A stretch of DNA of 64,000 bases. It comes from Marinomonas alcarazii (GTDB taxonomy: Bacteria > Pseudomonadota > Gammaproteobacteria > Pseudomonadales > Marinomonadaceae). The notes beneath the pieces are model-generated. The model did no database searches. It was not told the origin of the DNA and saw only the letters and a list, made by a program, of their open reading frames with translations. Of this stretch, positions 23,454 through 32,797 are shown one piece after another (positions within the stretch are counted from its first letter, which is position 1; each line of letters opens with the position of its first letter). The stretch lies in the NCBI RefSeq assembly GCF_003208215.1, contig NZ_QKLW01000002.1, forward strand, positions 62,001 to 126,000. The letters run 5' to 3'. The position numbers and the translations under genes are program-made.

Positions 23454-24291
23454 ACTGAAATCTACGATGGGATAAACAAGGCATTTTTTGCCGACATTGA
23501 TCCAGTCTTTGCTTTTCTACCTCAAAGATAAAATACCCCGGCTCTTCTTGCAAATCCGCCAAGCATTCTCCAAAAGGAGAATACAAAACACTATTACCAT
23601 AAGTTTGCCTGATTGAATTATGCCAACCACATTGGCCAACGCCTAAGACATAACATTGATTTTCAATAGCACGGGCGGACAACAAGGTACGCCAGTGAGC
23701 TTTACCTGTCACATAAGTAAAGGCGGCAGGCACCAATAAAATTTCAGCCCCCATATTAACAAGTTGTCGATATAACTCAGGAAACCTCAGGTCATAGCAA
23801 ATGCTTAAACCCACTTTAAAGCCATCCACATCCACCACTTTTAATGACAACTCACCCGCCTCTATAAAATCAGACTCCTTATAAGAGGCTGCTTTATCAT
23901 CCACAGCAACGTCAAACAGATGAATTTTGTCATAGCGTTCAAGTATGGCGCCATCAGGACCAATCACCCAACAAGACTGCCTTACCCGCCCATTCGGCAC
24001 TAATTGGCCATCAAACCGAATATGAGAAGGGTGAGAGCCGATCACGATATAAACAGAGTAACGCTTGGCGAGCGTCGCGATCTCAGCAAAAATAATCGCT
24101 TGATCCTCAGACTCCGCCAAAGGTCGCATATTTTTACCATCAAACAAAAACACATTTTCCGGCAAAACAATAAGGCGCGCTCCTTCTTGCTGAGCAGCAG
24201 AAACGACCATACGTTTGACTTCTTCCAGATTACTTCGCCAATCTTTCGTGCTGGTAAGTTGAATAGCCGCGACACGCAATCTATTTGTCAT
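23452..24291 (-). CDS. Nitrilase superfamily amidase (Nit1/NitFhit-like, probable deaminated-glutathione amidase)
   Basis: A 279-residue CN-hydrolase. The catalytic triad is visible: Glu45 in LPENVF, Lys122 in YDKIHLFDV and Cys165 in SICYDLRFPELY. The Nit branch with YDKIHLFDV repairs deaminated glutathione, so that is the most likely substrate. Its start overlaps the yhdP end by 11 bases, which makes it the last gene of the mreB-to-nitrilase run. In Pseudomonas this run continues with tldD and pmbA; here it does not. Confidence 0.85.
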   Translation of the reverse strand: MTNRLRVAAIQLTSTKDWRSNLEEVKRMVVSAAQQEGARLIVLPENVFLFDGKNMRPLAESEDQAIIFAEIATLAKRYSVYIVIGSHPSHIRFDGQLVPNGRVRQSCWVIGPDGAILERYDKIHLFDVAVDDKAASYKESDFIEAGELSLKVVDVDGFKVGLSICYDLRFPELYRQLVNMGAEILLVPAAFTYVTGKAHWRTLLSARAIENQCYVLGVGQCGWHNSIRQTYGNSVLYSPFGECLADLQEEPGYFIFEVEKQRLDQCRQKMPCLSHRRFQ

Positions 24292-27200
24292 TGGATTTAC
24301 CCACTGGTTGATATCGAACAGGGGTTATAACAGGATCGTTAAAGGAACCTTCAACTTTATACTGCACACTCGTTACCTTAGATAACTGATCCCCGATTAG
24401 CTTATCAGTGATAAATAGCAGACCCGCCAACTGAGGAGTTCCCCATATCAACCCGGCCAAAGGCAGCGTTCCTGATATAGGAAAAGTGGCCGTTAGCCTT
24501 TCATTCAATTTTTCATTTACGATATCAGCTTCACCAGCAACAACAAGCTCAGCGGTTGGGGACTTGATGGTGATTGGGGAGATTGTTTTCAAAATACCAT
24601 TAGAAAGAGAAAGAACACCGTTAAAGTCGTCGTAAGTTAAGCCTGGTTCATAAACATCAGAAAAATCCAACAACAAACGTCGACTCAACGCCCCAACATT
24701 AAAGATCCCCAGCACCTTCAAAAATGGCGGTAACTCATCTACTTGACTGAAATTACCATTCGATGAAGAAAAAGCAATCCGCCCAGAAACCGACTCTCGA
24801 TCAAAATAAAATGGGTGTCCTTTCCAACTTAAACCCACGTCAATTTTGTACTTTTTAGAGGTAACAATCGGCTTATTGGAAAACTTTTGCGTCAATTCAG
24901 CCAGATCCGCACCGTCAGCAGCCACAACCAGCTCAACACTAGAAGACTCCCCTCTATCTTGCCAGAATAAAGACCCTGTAAAATGACCTGTCTTTAATTT
25001 AGATGAAATAGGGTCAACCCTTAGAACATCACCCTCTCTGGTAATATTAAGCTGCCAATCGCCGTAAGGCTTTTCATTAAAATAAAGCTGATCCACAGAC
25101 AATTTCATATTTGGAATTTGCCTAGCAGAAAAAGGCGCTTCTTTACTACTGCCGGCTTCCTCTGAAGGATCTGAATTCCAGCTCAAGAAACCAAAATTGA
25201 GATTGATCACACCATCTTTCTTTATGAAAGCAAAATTCATTTCATCCGAATTCACAAAAAGGGGCTTATTAGTCGAGGCGTTATAAGCCACCTTAAAGTT
25301 ATGCCAAGTGTTATTTGGATTAACCACCACTCTATCGACTATAAGATCAACTCGACTCAACCAAGCGGGTAATGCAGGAATATCGTCCGCATCAGTTTGA
25401 GTACTTCCGCCTGAAAAATCCGCCATTACAGACTGCCACTCAGGCACAAGAAGCTGCTTCAAGTTTCCACTAATCACCAAGCCATTCGGTATTGTTGAAC
25501 TGAATTCTTCCCCTTGAACCGTACTAACAATCAACTCACCGCCAATAAACTCATTGCGTTGAAGCAGCATTCTCGCCTTTGCAAGGCTGTCATAACTCGC
25601 ATCAATAACAAGATCAGATTCATGCTGCCTCACTTTGACTTGCAGCGGTTTTGTTTCATCCGATTCCTTTCCTATTGGTTCTGGCAGATCTATTTTCACC
25701 CCTACCAGCTCACTATCAATGGTAAAATCGACCTGCCCCATTTGAGACTGATTAACCAACAACTTTCCTGCGTAACCAGTCAGACCAGACGCTCTATTGA
25801 TTGCCAAATCACTAACATCACGCCATTTAAGAACGTCTTTAATATCCACTTCACCTGAAAAATCACCAATCACAGCCAGCCCACCAGCCTCTCCTGTAGC
25901 CTTAGATGAAAGTGTAAGGTGTGACTTTCCTCCCAATGCTTGAATATCAAAAGCGGAATCCGTTATGCCTTCACTAGAACTATAATTCAGTCTTCCTTCT
26001 TGAACATAGCCAGCTAAATCAAGGTCATTAATTCTCAATGGGTTATTTTTAAAATCAAGCGCTAGCTGAACTTTGGGCTCCGTATCTGGAACAAATGGCA
26101 CAGCAACATCAAATTTACCCTTTACTCGCCCCTCCAATTGCCAGTTAGCAAAAGGTGACAAAACAGAGTCGGCCAACGGCGTTGATTGCAACGTAGAAAT
26201 AACTAAGGGGGCCTCTTCATCAACAGCACCCGAAATATTCAGCCAATCTGCTTTCTCATTTATGATCGGCACTGTCACCAAAAGATTACTTACGGGCAAA
26301 TCTGCTAACTTAGCTGAGTCCACATGAACACTGATACCTGTCGCATCATATGAAAAATTGCCTTTGACATCCGTCGCTGTAGGCCAGTTTTCATCAAACG
26401 CCACATCCGTATCATTTAGCCCCATTTGCATTCTTACGTGAGGCTTAGCACCGTCTGACAACTCGCTCTGCACCAATACATCAACATCCGTGATTTCACC
26501 AGAATTAGGAAATGCCTTCTGAATCCAAGACATAACCGCTTCATCAAGCACTTTAGGCGGAATATAATCCAGTCGATCTGCAACAGATAAATTTTGACCA
26601 TGCAAATCTAAAGCAAGCCAATCAGGTTCATCACTTCTAACTTCTAAACGAAAGCCGCCATTAACATCAGCACCACGGCGTTGCACCAACAAATCACGAC
26701 CGCTCACTAAAAATATATCTTGTTGTTTTTGCCAGCTCACGTAGCCCAAAACTTTATCAACCTGCCAAGGCGATTCGTACACCGTATCAAACCACAGCTT
26801 GCTGTCATTACCCCGAAAATCGATATAGCCACTGTCTTCAGACAAACTAAAAACAGCATTAATTTTATCGGCCTGAGGAATGCCATTGTAGGCATTAACG
26901 GATGCGGCTTGCAGATTACTTAAAAACTCAAATGACAACTCACCGTCTTCTCGCCACACCTGAACGCTACCATTCTTAGCAACACCCAATGGGTGTAAGC
27001 CGTTCAAAATACTGAATGCGTTAGAATCTTTTGGCAAAAAATGCGCTAATATTTCATGACCCAAGCCCAAATCAGCTTGGTTAAAGCGGACTGTCGAACG
27101 GTCCGTTAAAGACGACCAATCAAATACAGCATCAATAGCAGGATAACTAACATCACTGCTATCACTTATTACCAAATCCTTTAGATCGAGACGAATCGCT

Positions 27201-28099
27201 GGCTGCCGCTGTGAATAGTGAAGTTTTACAGAGGAAGTCGCATCAAAATTCCGCCCATCCTCAAAACCAATGTTGACGTTCGTAGACTCTGCACGAACTT
27301 CGTATTCCTTACCGACAACAGCGTCTAGCCAAAGCTCACCAGCAAAATCGGCGGACGCAATAGAATAGGCATTATTCGCTAATACACTATCAATAGGCAA
27401 AGATATCTTAGGGGCCACAAGCGACGCTTTTACTCGATAATCACCCAGCAAACCGCGCGTTTGCGCAATACGAGCATTAAGTACGAATGGCGACTGATAA
27501 TCATCTAAAAAGATCTTTGATGTCAGCAAAGACTCAAATGATTTCTGGAAAAGGTACAAATGTGGGAAGCGAACTTTATGCTCACCCAATTGCTCACTGT
27601 TAATGTCTATTTGACCATCATAAATAGAAAAGTTTTTCTGAGCAGACAAGTAATCTAACGCACGCTCAACACCCACATCATTGCGAACATTACGCGAAGT
27701 AGCCCCAGCCAGATGCCAAACACCCTTATTTTCCTGCATCTGCACATAGGGGCGGACAAATCGAATATAGGTAAACTGAGGGCTTAAACTAAGTAGAGAT
27801 TTAACGGTATCTAAGCGAATCCGCATTTCATCAACACGAACAGAGGCCTTTCCGTTAGCCAAAATATTAAAGCCGCTAATTGATACAGTTGGATCAACGC
27901 CTTCTAAACCGCCATCAATCCTTTCCAGCGTCACTGGGTAGCCAATGATTTGCTGTAAATTATTCTCGATTTGTGGGCGATAGCGATCCATATAAGGAAG
28001 CAGTTGCCCAACACTGACCGCAAAGATAGCCAGCAGTGCTGTTAAAACAACAGCCGCCCAAAAAGAAAAAAGGATCAGCTTACGCAATACCCAACGCAT
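24281..28099 (-). CDS. yhdP: YhdP family AsmA-like inter-membrane lipid transport protein
   Basis: A 1272-residue protein (1266 in E. coli) with one N-terminal membrane anchor (about 9-32) and a long periplasmic beta-rich body of AsmA-like/DUF3971 type. The motifs near the end, PLAGLIWGTPQLAGLLFITDKLIGDQLSKVTSVQYKVEG, are typical. YhdP is one of the proteins, with TamB and YdbH, that move phospholipids to the outer membrane. It follows rng by 16 bases and overlaps the nitrilase gene. Mla and Lpt genes lie in the same window, so several lipid routes are encoded close together. Confidence 0.93.
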   Translation of the reverse strand: MRWVLRKLILFSFWAAVVLTALLAIFAVSVGQLLPYMDRYRPQIENNLQQIIGYPVTLERIDGGLEGVDPTVSISGFNILANGKASVRVDEMRIRLDTVKSLLSLSPQFTYIRFVRPYVQMQENKGVWHLAGATSRNVRNDVGVERALDYLSAQKNFSIYDGQIDINSEQLGEHKVRFPHLYLFQKSFESLLTSKIFLDDYQSPFVLNARIAQTRGLLGDYRVKASLVAPKISLPIDSVLANNAYSIASADFAGELWLDAVVGKEYEVRAESTNVNIGFEDGRNFDATSSVKLHYSQRQPAIRLDLKDLVISDSSDVSYPAIDAVFDWSSLTDRSTVRFNQADLGLGHEILAHFLPKDSNAFSILNGLHPLGVAKNGSVQVWREDGELSFEFLSNLQAASVNAYNGIPQADKINAVFSLSEDSGYIDFRGNDSKLWFDTVYESPWQVDKVLGYVSWQKQQDIFLVSGRDLLVQRRGADVNGGFRLEVRSDEPDWLALDLHGQNLSVADRLDYIPPKVLDEAVMSWIQKAFPNSGEITDVDVLVQSELSDGAKPHVRMQMGLNDTDVAFDENWPTATDVKGNFSYDATGISVHVDSAKLADLPVSNLLVTVPIINEKADWLNISGAVDEEAPLVISTLQSTPLADSVLSPFANWQLEGRVKGKFDVAVPFVPDTEPKVQLALDFKNNPLRINDLDLAGYVQEGRLNYSSSEGITDSAFDIQALGGKSHLTLSSKATGEAGGLAVIGDFSGEVDIKDVLKWRDVSDLAINRASGLTGYAGKLLVNQSQMGQVDFTIDSELVGVKIDLPEPIGKESDETKPLQVKVRQHESDLVIDASYDSLAKARMLLQRNEFIGGELIVSTVQGEEFSSTIPNGLVISGNLKQLLVPEWQSVMADFSGGSTQTDADDIPALPAWLSRVDLIVDRVVVNPNNTWHNFKVAYNASTNKPLFVNSDEMNFAFIKKDGVINLNFGFLSWNSDPSEEAGSSKEAPFSARQIPNMKLSVDQLYFNEKPYGDWQLNITREGDVLRVDPISSKLKTGHFTGSLFWQDRGESSSVELVVAADGADLAELTQKFSNKPIVTSKKYKIDVGLSWKGHPFYFDRESVSGRIAFSSSNGNFSQVDELPPFLKVLGIFNVGALSRRLLLDFSDVYEPGLTYDDFNGVLSLSNGILKTISPITIKSPTAELVVAGEADIVNEKLNERLTATFPISGTLPLAGLIWGTPQLAGLLFITDKLIGDQLSKVTSVQYKVEGSFNDPVITPVRYQPVGKSNDK

Positions 28100-28115
28100 C
28101 TTACGTCCTTTTTAG

Positions 28116-29570
28116 TTAACGCAAAACAACATCATATTGATCTTGCGTATAAACAGAATCCACTTGAAAACGGATAGTTTTGCCGATGAATGCTTCCAAT
28201 TCAGCAACAGCAACACTTTCTTCATCAAGAAACCTTTCCACTACAGCGCTCGCAGCCAACACAGTGTATGTCTGAGAGTTATATGCTCGGTCCGCTCTTA
28301 AAATTTCTCGGAACACCTCATAACATACGGTTTCCGGTGTCTTAACAAGCCCACTCCCCCGACAAGAACGACAAGGCTCACACAAGGTTTGCCCCAGACT
28401 CTCACGCGTTCTTTTTCTTGTCATTTCTACCAGACCAAGCTCAGAAACCCCGGTAATTTTGGTTTTAGCATGGTCTGCATCTAATACTTTCTCGAGCATA
28501 CGTAGAACTTGACGCTTATGCTCTTCATCTTCCATATCAATAAAGTCTATGATGATGATACCACCAAGATTTCGCAACCTCAGTTGTCGACCTATTGCCG
28601 TAGCAGCCTCAAGGTTCGTCTTGTAGATAGTCTCTTCAAGGTTTCGACTCCCGACAAAGGCCCCCGTATTAACATCGATAGTGGTCATAGATTCCGTTTG
28701 CTCAACCAACAAATAGCCACCCGACTTCAACTGTACCTTACGGTCTAAAGCCTTATGAATCTCATCCTCAACACTGTATAAATCAAAGATTGGACGCTCA
28801 CCAGGATAATACTCAATACGGTCTCTAAGATCTGGAATGAAATCTTCAGCAAAAGAGCGCAACTTAGCGTAATTCTCTTTCGAATCAATACGAATTTTTT
28901 CTGTCGAAAGCCCTACCAAATCACGCATGGTACGCAAATGCAGCGGAAGGTCTTCATAAATAATAGAGGGCGCCTTCGCATTTTGCATACGACGCTTAAC
29001 GGATTGCCATAGACGGGTTAGGAATTTGATATCTGAAAGAATTTCTTCTTCACCAGCCCGCTCTGCTGCTGTTCTTAGAATATAGCCACTGTTTTCATCC
29101 GCATCAGTAAGAGCTTCAGATACGAGCGTTTTAAGACGCTCACGCTCAACCTCATCTTCAATACGTTGACTCACCCCTACGTGTGCTTGATCTGGCATAT
29201 AAACCAAGTAACGAGAAGGAATAGAAAGATGAGTTGTTAACCGTGCCCCTTTTGAACTAATAGGGTCTTTTGTCACTTGAACCACTAACGATTGCCCTTC
29301 ACGCAAATAATCACCAATCTGATCACTTGGGTTAACAGCATCACGGCTCACGACTTCTGACACATGGATAAAAGCCGCCCTCTCTAAGCCAATATCAACA
29401 AATGCCGCTTGCATACCTGGAAGAACACGTACAACCTTGCCTTGGTAAATATTGCCAACAATCCCTTTACGACTTGAGCGCTCTATATAGACTTCTTGCA
29501 ACACGCCGTTCTCAACTAGAGCAACGCGAATCTCCATAGGAGTAACATTAATGAGTACATCTTCACTCAT
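28116..29570 (-). CDS. rng: Ribonuclease G
   Basis: A 484-residue RNase E/G family endonuclease. An S1 domain (GNIYQGKVVRVLPGMQAAFVDIG, about 38-120), the catalytic core with metal-binding aspartates in TIDVNTGAFVG and IIIDFIDMEDEEH, and a zinc-link cysteine cluster LCEPCRSCRGSG. The short length and lack of the long disordered tail separate it from RNase E. It processes 16S rRNA 5' ends and degrades mRNAs. It overlaps maf by eight bases. Confidence 0.96.
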   Translation of the reverse strand: MSEDVLINVTPMEIRVALVENGVLQEVYIERSSRKGIVGNIYQGKVVRVLPGMQAAFVDIGLERAAFIHVSEVVSRDAVNPSDQIGDYLREGQSLVVQVTKDPISSKGARLTTHLSIPSRYLVYMPDQAHVGVSQRIEDEVERERLKTLVSEALTDADENSGYILRTAAERAGEEEILSDIKFLTRLWQSVKRRMQNAKAPSIIYEDLPLHLRTMRDLVGLSTEKIRIDSKENYAKLRSFAEDFIPDLRDRIEYYPGERPIFDLYSVEDEIHKALDRKVQLKSGGYLLVEQTESMTTIDVNTGAFVGSRNLEETIYKTNLEAATAIGRQLRLRNLGGIIIIDFIDMEDEEHKRQVLRMLEKVLDADHAKTKITGVSELGLVEMTRKRTRESLGQTLCEPCRSCRGSGLVKTPETVCYEVFREILRADRAYNSQTYTVLAASAVVERFLDEESVAVAELEAFIGKTIRFQVDSVYTQDQYDVVLR

Positions 29571-30174
29571 GTGACATTTCCTCTAGCGAATGAATTCCGA
29601 ATTGGGCTAACAATTCAGCCGTTTCATACAGGGGCAGCCCAACAACAGCAGAATATGATCCTGACATAGTGCGTACGAAAATAGAACCCAAACCTTGAAT
29701 ACCGTATGAGCCAGCCTTGTCTTTAGGCTCATTCGTCTTCCAATACAAGTCTATTTCTACGTCTGAGATATCACGAAAAACCACATCACTTACAACACAT
29801 TTAGTAGCAACATGCTCAAGGTCAATATTACATAAACAAAGAGAGGTAATGACTTGGTGGGAACGGCCCGATAGCCGCCTTAACATGGATCTTGAATCTT
29901 CAAGAGAATCTGGCTTACCAAGAATGCAGCCATCTACGACCACACTGGTATCGGACGCAAGAAAAACAACGGAAGAGTCAAACTGAAGATTTTGCTGTGT
30001 ATACATCTTTGATGCCGCACGCGCTTTTTCTACTGCCATGCGCACAACATATTCTTTCGCCTCCTCCCGCTCTCTTGGCGTCTCATCGATGTCGGCAGGC
30101 AACACCTCAAAATCGTTAACCAAAAGACTAAGCAGCTCTTTCCTTCTCGGCGAAGCTGAAGCCAAAACAAGCAT
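29563..30174 (-). CDS. maf: Maf/YhdE family nucleotide pyrophosphatase
   Basis: A 203-residue Maf protein with LASASPRRKELLSLL at the start, SDTSVVVDGCILGKP and GLGSIFVRTMSGSYSAVVGLPLYET. Members hydrolyse dTTP, UTP and modified nucleoside triphosphates; the YhdE subgroup, located next to mreD and rng as here, is a dTTP/UTP pyrophosphatase. Confidence 0.93.
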   Translation of the reverse strand: MLVLASASPRRKELLSLLVNDFEVLPADIDETPREREEAKEYVVRMAVEKARAASKMYTQQNLQFDSSVVFLASDTSVVVDGCILGKPDSLEDSRSMLRRLSGRSHQVITSLCLCNIDLEHVATKCVVSDVVFRDISDVEIDLYWKTNEPKDKAGSYGIQGLGSIFVRTMSGSYSAVVGLPLYETAELLAQFGIHSLEEMSHE

Positions 30175-30194
30175 AATGTTTCCCTAAAATAAAC

Positions 30195-30668
30195 CTAGCG
30201 AATAGCATAAATACGTCGCACACTGCGAAGTATGACGAAAGACCAAGGCCATAACGCCCCAGTAATAACCGCAGGCATAAATATCATTAATGTTGGTTCA
30301 GCATTACCAAGGTAATGATCAACCCAGAAATCGATAAGTTGATTCACACTAACCAACATACATATAAAAAACCCTTGCTGCCAACGGTGGTACATCCGCA
30401 AACGTTTATAAAATACAGCACAGGTATAGGCAATAATGACATAGGTTAATGAGTGCTGACCGATTATACCGCCCTGTAATAGATCAACCATTAAGCCCAA
30501 AAACCAAGCCAAGCCGACACCAACACGGAAAGGCAAGGCAATCACCCAATACAAAATAACCAGCAAAGCCCACTCAGGACGGAACCAGACAAGGTCTCCG
30601 GGGAAAGGCACCGCTTCAAGCATCAAGGCGGTTAGCAAGGTAATACAGAATACAAAGATAGGCTTCAT
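30195..30668 (-). CDS. mreD: Rod shape-determining protein MreD
   Basis: A 157-residue inner-membrane protein with about five membrane segments, of normal length for MreD. It belongs to the elongasome with MreB, MreC, RodA and PBP2. Its start overlaps the mreC stop by four bases (ATGA). Sequence conservation in MreD is low, and the call leans on position and hydropathy; GGIIGQHSLTYVIIAY and LFMVNLLIG-like helices agree. Confidence 0.92.
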   Translation of the reverse strand: MKPIFVFCITLLTALMLEAVPFPGDLVWFRPEWALLVILYWVIALPFRVGVGLAWFLGLMVDLLQGGIIGQHSLTYVIIAYTCAVFYKRLRMYHRWQQGFFICMLVSVNQLIDFWVDHYLGNAEPTLMIFMPAVITGALWPWSFVILRSVRRIYAIR

Positions 30669-31501
30669 GATCGTCCCGCCTTAGGCTTTTCTATTAGCAT
30701 AACGTGGCGACTTCGCCCCAATTGAGCTAAAGGCACAACTTCCACATCAGCATAGGCTTTGCCCTGTGTATATTTCACACTGCGAACCACACCGACAGGA
30801 TAACCACTAGGGAATCGATTATCTAAACCAGAAGTAGTAAGCACATCACCTTTTCTAATGTCGACAGAACGTGGCACGCTCATCAGCTCCATTACGGTGA
30901 CACTTCCAGTGCCTCGTAAAATACCTCTAAAGCCAGTACGAGATAACTGCACGGGCACAAAGTGATTGGCGTCTGCAATCAATAGCACTCGGCTACTGTA
31001 AGCGGAAGTTTCAACGACTTGACCCAACACACCGGTGGCATCTAAAACAGGCTGACCAACATAAGCACCAGAGGAAAACCCTTTATCGATCATCAATCTA
31101 TGGCTGTAGGCATTTTGGTCAAAACCGATTACTTCAGCCATAACGACTTTTTCATCAACCCGCTGGGATGCATCCAACAACTCGCGCAAGCGCACATTTT
31201 CGGCCTGCAGAGATTCAAGACGCTGCTGCCGGCTACGTAGAAGTAAAATTTCAGCCTGCAAAGATTTATTCTCTCTAACCAAGCCTTCCCTACTCGCTAG
31301 ATGCTCACCAGCCCAGTTGAACATTTTTTGAGGAGTATTAACCACAACTTGAATAGGAGTCACAAGCAAAGTCAGATATGGCCTTACTTGTGAAAACGCA
31401 GAATAACGCACATCAGCAACGATCATTGCAACAGACAAAATAACCAACACAACAAAACGCGCGCTGGATACTTTGCCACTGAAAAGAAGCGAATTATTAA
31501 T
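30665..31501 (-). CDS. mreC: Rod shape-determining protein MreC, apparent ATT start
   Basis: MreC is a bitopic protein that links MreB to PBP2. The visible protein has a membrane helix (VVLVILSVAMIVADVRY), a coiled coil (about 60-110) and a beta-rich C-terminal domain. The first ATG/GTG/TTG in frame is the GTG at 31450, which starts inside the membrane helix, has no ribosome-binding site and gives 261 residues. Upstream, an open stretch encodes INNSLLFSGKVSSARFV, the expected short basic cytoplasmic segment, up to an ATT at 31501 with TAGGAG six bases ahead of it. That gives 278 residues. The frame closes with a stop at 31511-31513. ATT starts are rare but known (infC). Confidence 0.9.
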   Translation of the reverse strand: MNNSLLFSGKVSSARFVVLVILSVAMIVADVRYSAFSQVRPYLTLLVTPIQVVVNTPQKMFNWAGEHLASREGLVRENKSLQAEILLLRSRQQRLESLQAENVRLRELLDASQRVDEKVVMAEVIGFDQNAYSHRLMIDKGFSSGAYVGQPVLDATGVLGQVVETSAYSSRVLLIADANHFVPVQLSRTGFRGILRGTGSVTVMELMSVPRSVDIRKGDVLTTSGLDNRFPSGYPVGVVRSVKYTQGKAYADVEVVPLAQLGRSRHVMLIEKPKAGRS

Positions 31502-31517
31502 GGTACGCTCCTAACGC

Positions 31518-32797
<1,280 letters not shown>

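Follow-up and report, generated by a model that had tools for sequence, protein, structure and literature searches.

The mreC gene of Marinomonas alcarazii very probably starts at an ATT codon (we put the probability at roughly 0.9) and, judged by the codons found at the same place in its relatives, an AUH start of mreC (ATT, ATC or ATA in the DNA) is an old trait of many Gammaproteobacteria and not a local oddity. To our knowledge, very few bacterial genes have an AUU-type start, infC being the textbook case. Such genes are familiar as a kind; that mreC belongs to them, and over such a breadth of bacteria, appears to be new. Among the matches listed by a full-text literature search with mreC and start-codon terms, which had supplementary tables outside its scope, there was no report of such an mreC start. 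The gene is part of the elongasome and is said to be essential in rod-shaped bacteria (available text of PMC8137920). Gene finders limited to ATG, GTG and TTG lose the cytoplasmic tail and half the membrane helix of MreC. Marinomonas MreC is, from its sequence, probably annotated too short, and the published numbering of the Pseudomonas aeruginosa protein looks like such a truncated annotation. With this gene one can also readily ask whether IF3 acts on genes other than infC, which encodes it, and what sets the dosage of MreC.

The mreC locus of M. alcarazii

The window, the whole stretch of 64,000 nucleotides of M. alcarazii DNA that was analysed, contains the following features around the start of mreC.

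30665..31501, minus strand: mreC read from the ATT, 278 codons plus stop, without an inner stop
31499..31501, minus strand: ATT, proposed mreC start codon
31508..31513, minus strand: TAGGAG, Shine-Dalgarno-like, six bases ahead of the ATT
31513-31511, minus strand: TAG closing the mreC frame upstream, part of TAGGAG
31451..31498, minus strand: mreC codons 2–17, NNSLLFSGKVSSARFV, a short basic cytoplasmic segment and the first part of the membrane helix
31448..31450, minus strand: GTG, mreC codon 18, first in-frame standard start, probably not the start
31424..31426, minus strand: ATG, mreC codon 26, second conceivable inner start
31518..32561, minus strand: mreB, operon gene upstream of mreC, with its TAA stop at 31520-31518
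30195..30668, minus strand: mreD, 3' of mreC, with an ordinary ATG start

The gene lies between mreB and mreD, scores 137.5 bits against the PF04085 profile (cut-off 28) as the single match in the genome, and encodes a protein 97% identical to MreC of M. foliarum. By direct reading, only GAG CGT ACC stands between the upstream TAG and the ATT, and no ATG, GTG or TTG occurs in the window from the upstream in-frame stop to the ATT at 31501; the ATT is followed by AAT AAT TCG CTT CTT TTC AGT GGC AAA. The first-pass annotation had proposed that mreC opens at this ATT, with TAGGAG six bases ahead and a stop further upstream, that the first standard start is the GTG at 31450, within the membrane helix and without a ribosome-binding site, and that 16 bases separate the ATT from the mreB stop. 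These sequence features were all borne out, and the coordinates were correct throughout. Further along the minus strand, 3' of mreD and within 24281-31501, lie Maf/YhdE-like, RNase G-like and long YhdP-like frames, named by resemblance.

Codon 1 of mreC in relatives

The frame read from the ATT was aligned with 124 + 108 + 48 homologues (order, class and Marinomonas group). Codon 1 was located with a motif or an HMM, its position was corrected manually in twelve rows (L145, L149, L169, L220, L222, L233, L234, L237, L244, L347, L349 and L355), and in diverged rows standard starts were assigned by hand. Two rows, L257 and L356, are doubtful and stand outside the tallies of isoleucine codons; the sets of 57, 156 and 23 rows used below contain one or other of them.

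In the Marinomonas group, which is the genus as defined by the search tool (a family search gave the same 48 genomes), codon 1 is ATT in 44 genomes, ATC in 2, ATA in 1 and GTT in 1. The GTT genome (G041, locus L026) is 77% complete and has an in-frame GTG four codons upstream of codon 1; either the start has moved or the incomplete genome contains an error. The 22 named loci, mostly Marinomonas with one Maribrevibacterium and many from the same species as the 48 genomes, have ATT in 21 cases and ATA in one. These counts bear directly on a sequencing or assembly error at 31499-31501, which had been put forward as an alternative to an ATT start. The same ATT recurs in 44 of 48 separate genome sequences, and an ATT, ATC or ATA stands at codon 1 in 47 of the 48 and in all 22 named loci, so an error is excluded for practical purposes. 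The comparison with relatives had itself been proposed as the check, with ATG or GTG at another position named as the outcome that would speak against the ATT; in Marinomonas such a codon appears only in the GTT genome.

The trait extends well beyond the genus. In the order, mreC was found in 152 of 155 genomes, 146 of them outside the group, and codon 1 could be read in 124 of these 146. It is an isoleucine codon in 99 of the 124 (ATT 44, ATC 47, ATA 8), with ATG in 19, GTG in 3, TTG in 2 and one row unassigned. The share is 77 of 84 among the first, most similar rows and 22 of 40 among the remaining rows, which include more diverged genomes. For the remainder of the class, 124 genomes matched and 108 of them were read; the aligned codon encodes isoleucine in 56, not counting L180, L199 and L262, three rows in which a plausible isoleucine start lies one to three codons away from that position. 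The aligned codon is ATG in 18 of the 108 and GTG or TTG in 4; in the remaining rows the N-terminus has diverged, and an ATG often lies within a few codons. Among the rows examined, an mreC start at an isoleucine codon was found in 37 of 43 families in the order and 54 of 104 in the remaining class. Rows resembling enterobacteria in a sample of the phylum have ATG at the mreC start. Fourteen rows from other classes of the phylum (L305-L318), with N-termini too diverged for alignment at codon 1, showed no clear AUH start of mreC, and standard starts are available nearby.

Standard codons are scattered over a FastTree phylogeny of 206 rows, in which the group was thinned to 13. The best tree requires 26 changes, and at least 8 are forced by supported branches; many inner branches are weak, and the tree alone gives no direction of change. 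The scatter fits an old AUH start that would have been replaced several times by standard codons.

Codon 1 as start codon or inner codon

Alternatively, the ATT could be an inner isoleucine codon of a frame that ribosomes enter further upstream, whether through a frameshift or read-through out of mreB or at another unusual codon. Against such an entry, the window has an in-frame TAG three codons ahead of the ATT. Among rows with an isoleucine codon at codon 1, the interval from the upstream stop to this codon is free of in-frame ATG, GTG and TTG in 47 of 47 in the group, 64 of 77 in the order, 50 of 57 in the class and 20 of 23 further rows of the order (the sets of 57 and 23 hold one doubtful row each). 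The 13, 7 and 3 rows of the last three sets that do have an upstream in-frame standard codon are on the side of an inner codon. Entry from mreB is also hard to reconcile with the distance between the two genes, which varies (19–324 bases in the order, –7 to 377 in the class) and shows no common frame link. Codon 1 moreover aligns without gaps with Met1 of E. coli MreC (7eft compared with the Pseudomonas-like row L097).

The codons that replace isoleucine are also informative. Where codon 1 is not an isoleucine codon among the first 84 rows of the order, it is always ATG, GTG or TTG (7 of 7), compared with 41 of 114 replacements at inner isoleucine columns (p = 0.0012); the figure of 7 of 7 refers to the curated placement, whereas in the automatic alignment standard codons account for 6 of the 8 non-isoleucine letters of column 1. 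The usage of ATT, ATC and ATA points the other way, since outside the group their shares at codon 1 equal those of inner isoleucine codons, as would also be expected if codon 1 were itself an inner codon. In the group, ATT exceeds the background, with 44 observed and 29.9 expected in rows that are related. A preference for ATT as such is thus confined to the group and absent in the order and the class.

A Shine-Dalgarno site at start spacing is a further argument against an inner codon. A match of at least 4 bases, 3–13 bases 5' of codon 1, is present in 45 of 47 isoleucine rows in the group, 64 of 77 in the order (the isoleucine rows among the first 84) and 45 of 57 in the class (one row doubtful), and the commonest spacing is 6–8 bases. 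At control offsets, matches occur in 2–49% of rows in the group, 13–45% in the order and 14–28% in the class, the high values (49% at one place in the group) being due in part to the close kinship of the sequences. The median anti-Shine-Dalgarno energy of the isoleucine rows is –7.1, against –2.9 at upstream control places. On this evidence it is highly improbable that the ATT is an inner codon.

We therefore favor initiation at codon 1, as the first-pass annotation had proposed; the codons of the relatives, the Shine-Dalgarno site, the alignment with Met1 and the selection on codons 2–17 described below all support it. We infer that the ribosome really initiates at the AUH codon, with methionine. 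Initiator fMet-tRNA would pair with the AUU of the mreC mRNA despite a third-base mismatch, aided by the good Shine-Dalgarno site, and the rate of initiation would be low. The product would be a normal full-length MreC, in which the methionine is followed by a short basic tail in the cytoplasm, a single membrane helix and the periplasmic domain.

Translation of codons 2–17 and inner starts

A shorter MreC could instead begin at the GTG (31450) or the ATG (31426), with the stretch upstream untranslated. These are the first standard codons in the frame, the ATG at codon 26 is kept in 45 of 47 group genomes with an isoleucine start, and the published numbering of P. aeruginosa MreC seemingly uses such an inner GTG. 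Against this, codons 2–17 are under purifying selection at the amino-acid level in Marinomonas, judged by their substitution pattern. The dN/dS ratio is about 0.23 over codons 2–17 and 0.15 over codons 9–17, calculated from the 42 of 48 genomes that show no length change, with 292 of 400 sampled pairs usable. Third codon positions vary most, and Gly9, Lys10, Ser12, Arg15 and Phe16 are conserved in the group through synonymous changes. Selection on this stretch implies that the GTG cannot be the sole start.

Codon 18 is GTG in 30 of 47 group genomes with an isoleucine start, and is thus poorly conserved. In the window there is no Shine-Dalgarno match ahead of this GTG, which is preceded by tccagcgcgcgttttgtt, and neither a Shine-Dalgarno match nor a purine-rich site ahead of the ATG at codon 26. 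The highest hydropathy over 19 residues is 2.37 for a protein read from the ATT, 1.82 from the GTG and 1.13 from the ATG, meaning that a start at either codon shortens the membrane helix. The GTG was accordingly rejected as sole start on upstream selection, weak conservation and the cut helix, and a shorter MreC as the sole product, which had been offered as an alternative to the ATT start, is very unlikely. On the side of inner starts, a standard codon preceded by a Shine-Dalgarno match occurs between codons 6 and 30 in 13 of 47 rows in the group, 17 of 77 in the order and 16 of 57 in the class. An additional inner start at the conserved ATG of codon 26 is conceivable, next to the preferred start at codon 1.

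Spacing between mreB and mreC

The C-terminal part of mreB lies upstream of mreC in all 47 group genomes with an isoleucine start. The gap between the two genes is 16–21 bases in the group, and coupling of mreC to the termination of mreB is possible in Marinomonas. With medians of 97 bases (order) and 68 bases (class), the gap elsewhere leaves termination-reinitiation unsupported as a general need. The growth of the gap outside Marinomonas, with a median of 97 and values up to 324 in the remaining order, suggests that many relatives may have a separate leader or promoter for mreC. At the other end of the gene, a script that sought standard codons only located an mreD start close to the mreC stop in all 82 loci tried.

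Comparison with known systems

The pcnB gene of E. coli starts at AUU, and thus resembles mreC in having an AUU start in a gammaproteobacterium. The likeness does not extend to pcnB of Marinomonas, where the AUU is not kept in the rows at hand; in the three of nine that could be extracted (L282, L284 and L286) an ATG stands at what looks like the place equivalent to the E. coli start. The mreC of E. coli K-12 (L266) has ATG AAG CCA at the homologous place. It shares with the window the operon order mreB-mreC-mreD-yhdE-rng-yhdP (the window genes after mreD being named by resemblance) and has a similar N-terminus, MKPIFSRG compared with IKPIFSKG, but differs in having ATG in place of AUH and a poor Shine-Dalgarno site (–3.0 kcal/mol).

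The gene for IF3, infC, served as a control. In all nine Marinomonas rows (L270-L278, genome G000 included) it reads ATA AAA GGT AAT ATG after a GGAGAT-like sequence, and such codons are thus found where they are expected. From these rows Marinomonas infC appears to start at ATA, with the ATG four codons on as a possible rival. According to the available text of PMC5472188, infC starts at AUU in E. coli and at ATC in Streptomyces. Both infC and mreC combine an AUH start with a Shine-Dalgarno site, and in both, annotation programs expect a standard start. They differ in that infC encodes the very factor that rejects such codons, which creates a feedback loop, whereas mreC encodes a cell-wall elongation protein whose control by IF3 is only predicted. 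The same source describes sigR of Streptomyces, with a GTC start that is misannotated in genomes and repressed by IF3, as shown experimentally. Like mreC, sigR is the first gene of a protein pair in which the ratio matters, and has an odd start with a strong ribosome site; unlike mreC, it uses GTC instead of AUH, is described for one genus and has its repression by IF3 established by experiment (PMC5472188, available text).

Possible regulatory role of the AUH codon

With a weak AUH codon, less MreC than MreB would be made from the operon that they share. We regard it as an even bet that weak initiation serves to set the level of MreC in this way. Keeping that level low would be reasonable given that E. 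coli is sensitive to the dosage of MreC; in the available text of PMC7793260, surplus MreC changes cell shape there, and the authors judge a balance between the expression of MreC and that of MreD to be important. IF3 may control the AUH of mreC as it does the AUU of infC. This is a reasonable prediction because IF3 represses AUH-type start codons elsewhere, namely in E. coli and Streptomyces (PMC5472188, available text), but we make it tentatively, with the odds somewhat against it.

Among the relatives, those whose aligned codon is ATG tend to have poor Shine-Dalgarno sites. Their median anti-Shine-Dalgarno energy is –2.9, which is background level (n = 29), compared with –7.1 in the isoleucine rows (n = 156, one doubtful), and energies of –5 kcal/mol or lower occur in 140 of the 156 isoleucine rows and 8 of the 29 ATG rows. 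We treat this raw contrast, strong as it is, as a lead suggesting that the total rate of initiation may be held low either way. A trade-off between start codon and Shine-Dalgarno site received 3.4 tree-corrected pairs for and 1.5 against (median p 0.69, too few supported pairs), and good Shine-Dalgarno sites, with a median of –6.5, precede the 7 standard starts found among the first 84 rows of the order.

The AUH start could also be real and have no regulatory role, as an old accident tolerated through a good Shine-Dalgarno site. We give this reading a little less than an even chance. The interchange of ATT, ATC and ATA outside the group, as at inner codons, agrees with it, as do the many replacements of AUH by standard codons (at least 8 forced, 26 on the best tree). 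ATG is one base change away, yet AUH has been kept in 47 of 48 genomes in the group and 99 of 124 in the order, which argues against a neutral relic. The excess of ATT over background in the group (44 against 29.9, in related rows) does so as well, and so does the background-level energy of the 29 ATG rows, to be read with the tree-corrected p of 0.69 and the –6.5 of the first standard-start rows. A fuller regulatory scheme can be drawn in which the AUH start would be ancestral in much of the Gammaproteobacteria and rejected by IF3; together with a strong Shine-Dalgarno site it would keep MreC low relative to MreB and tie cell-wall elongation to IF3 and the supply of ribosomes. Lineages that acquired ATG, such as E. 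coli, would have let the Shine-Dalgarno site decay so that the rate stayed the same. As a whole this scheme is less likely than not.

Numbering of P. aeruginosa MreC

The MreC piece in PDB entry 6zlv is 100% identical over 176 residues to the protein of genome G401. The mreC of this genome (L319) opens at ATC with TAGGAG ahead, has no standard start upstream of the ATC, and carries TTG at codon 16 and GTG at codon 17. Codon 1 is ATC or ATA in all 12 loci that a search of its genus gave. The available text of PMC8137920 describes an MreC of 330 residues and a crystal construct of residues 97-258, and places the cytoplasmic part and the membrane region in the first 14 residues. The crystal chain of 164 residues, two of which probably come from a tag, begins at a leucine that is residue 113 when counted from the ATC. 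With this offset of 16 (113 compared with 97), residue 1 of the published numbering falls on the GTG at codon 17, within the helix. A G401 protein beginning at that GTG has 328 residues, compared with the published 330, and the alanine-proline tail may differ between strains. The published P. aeruginosa MreC thus most likely lacks 16 N-terminal residues. The periplasmic structure in PMC8137920 is unaffected by the missing residues.
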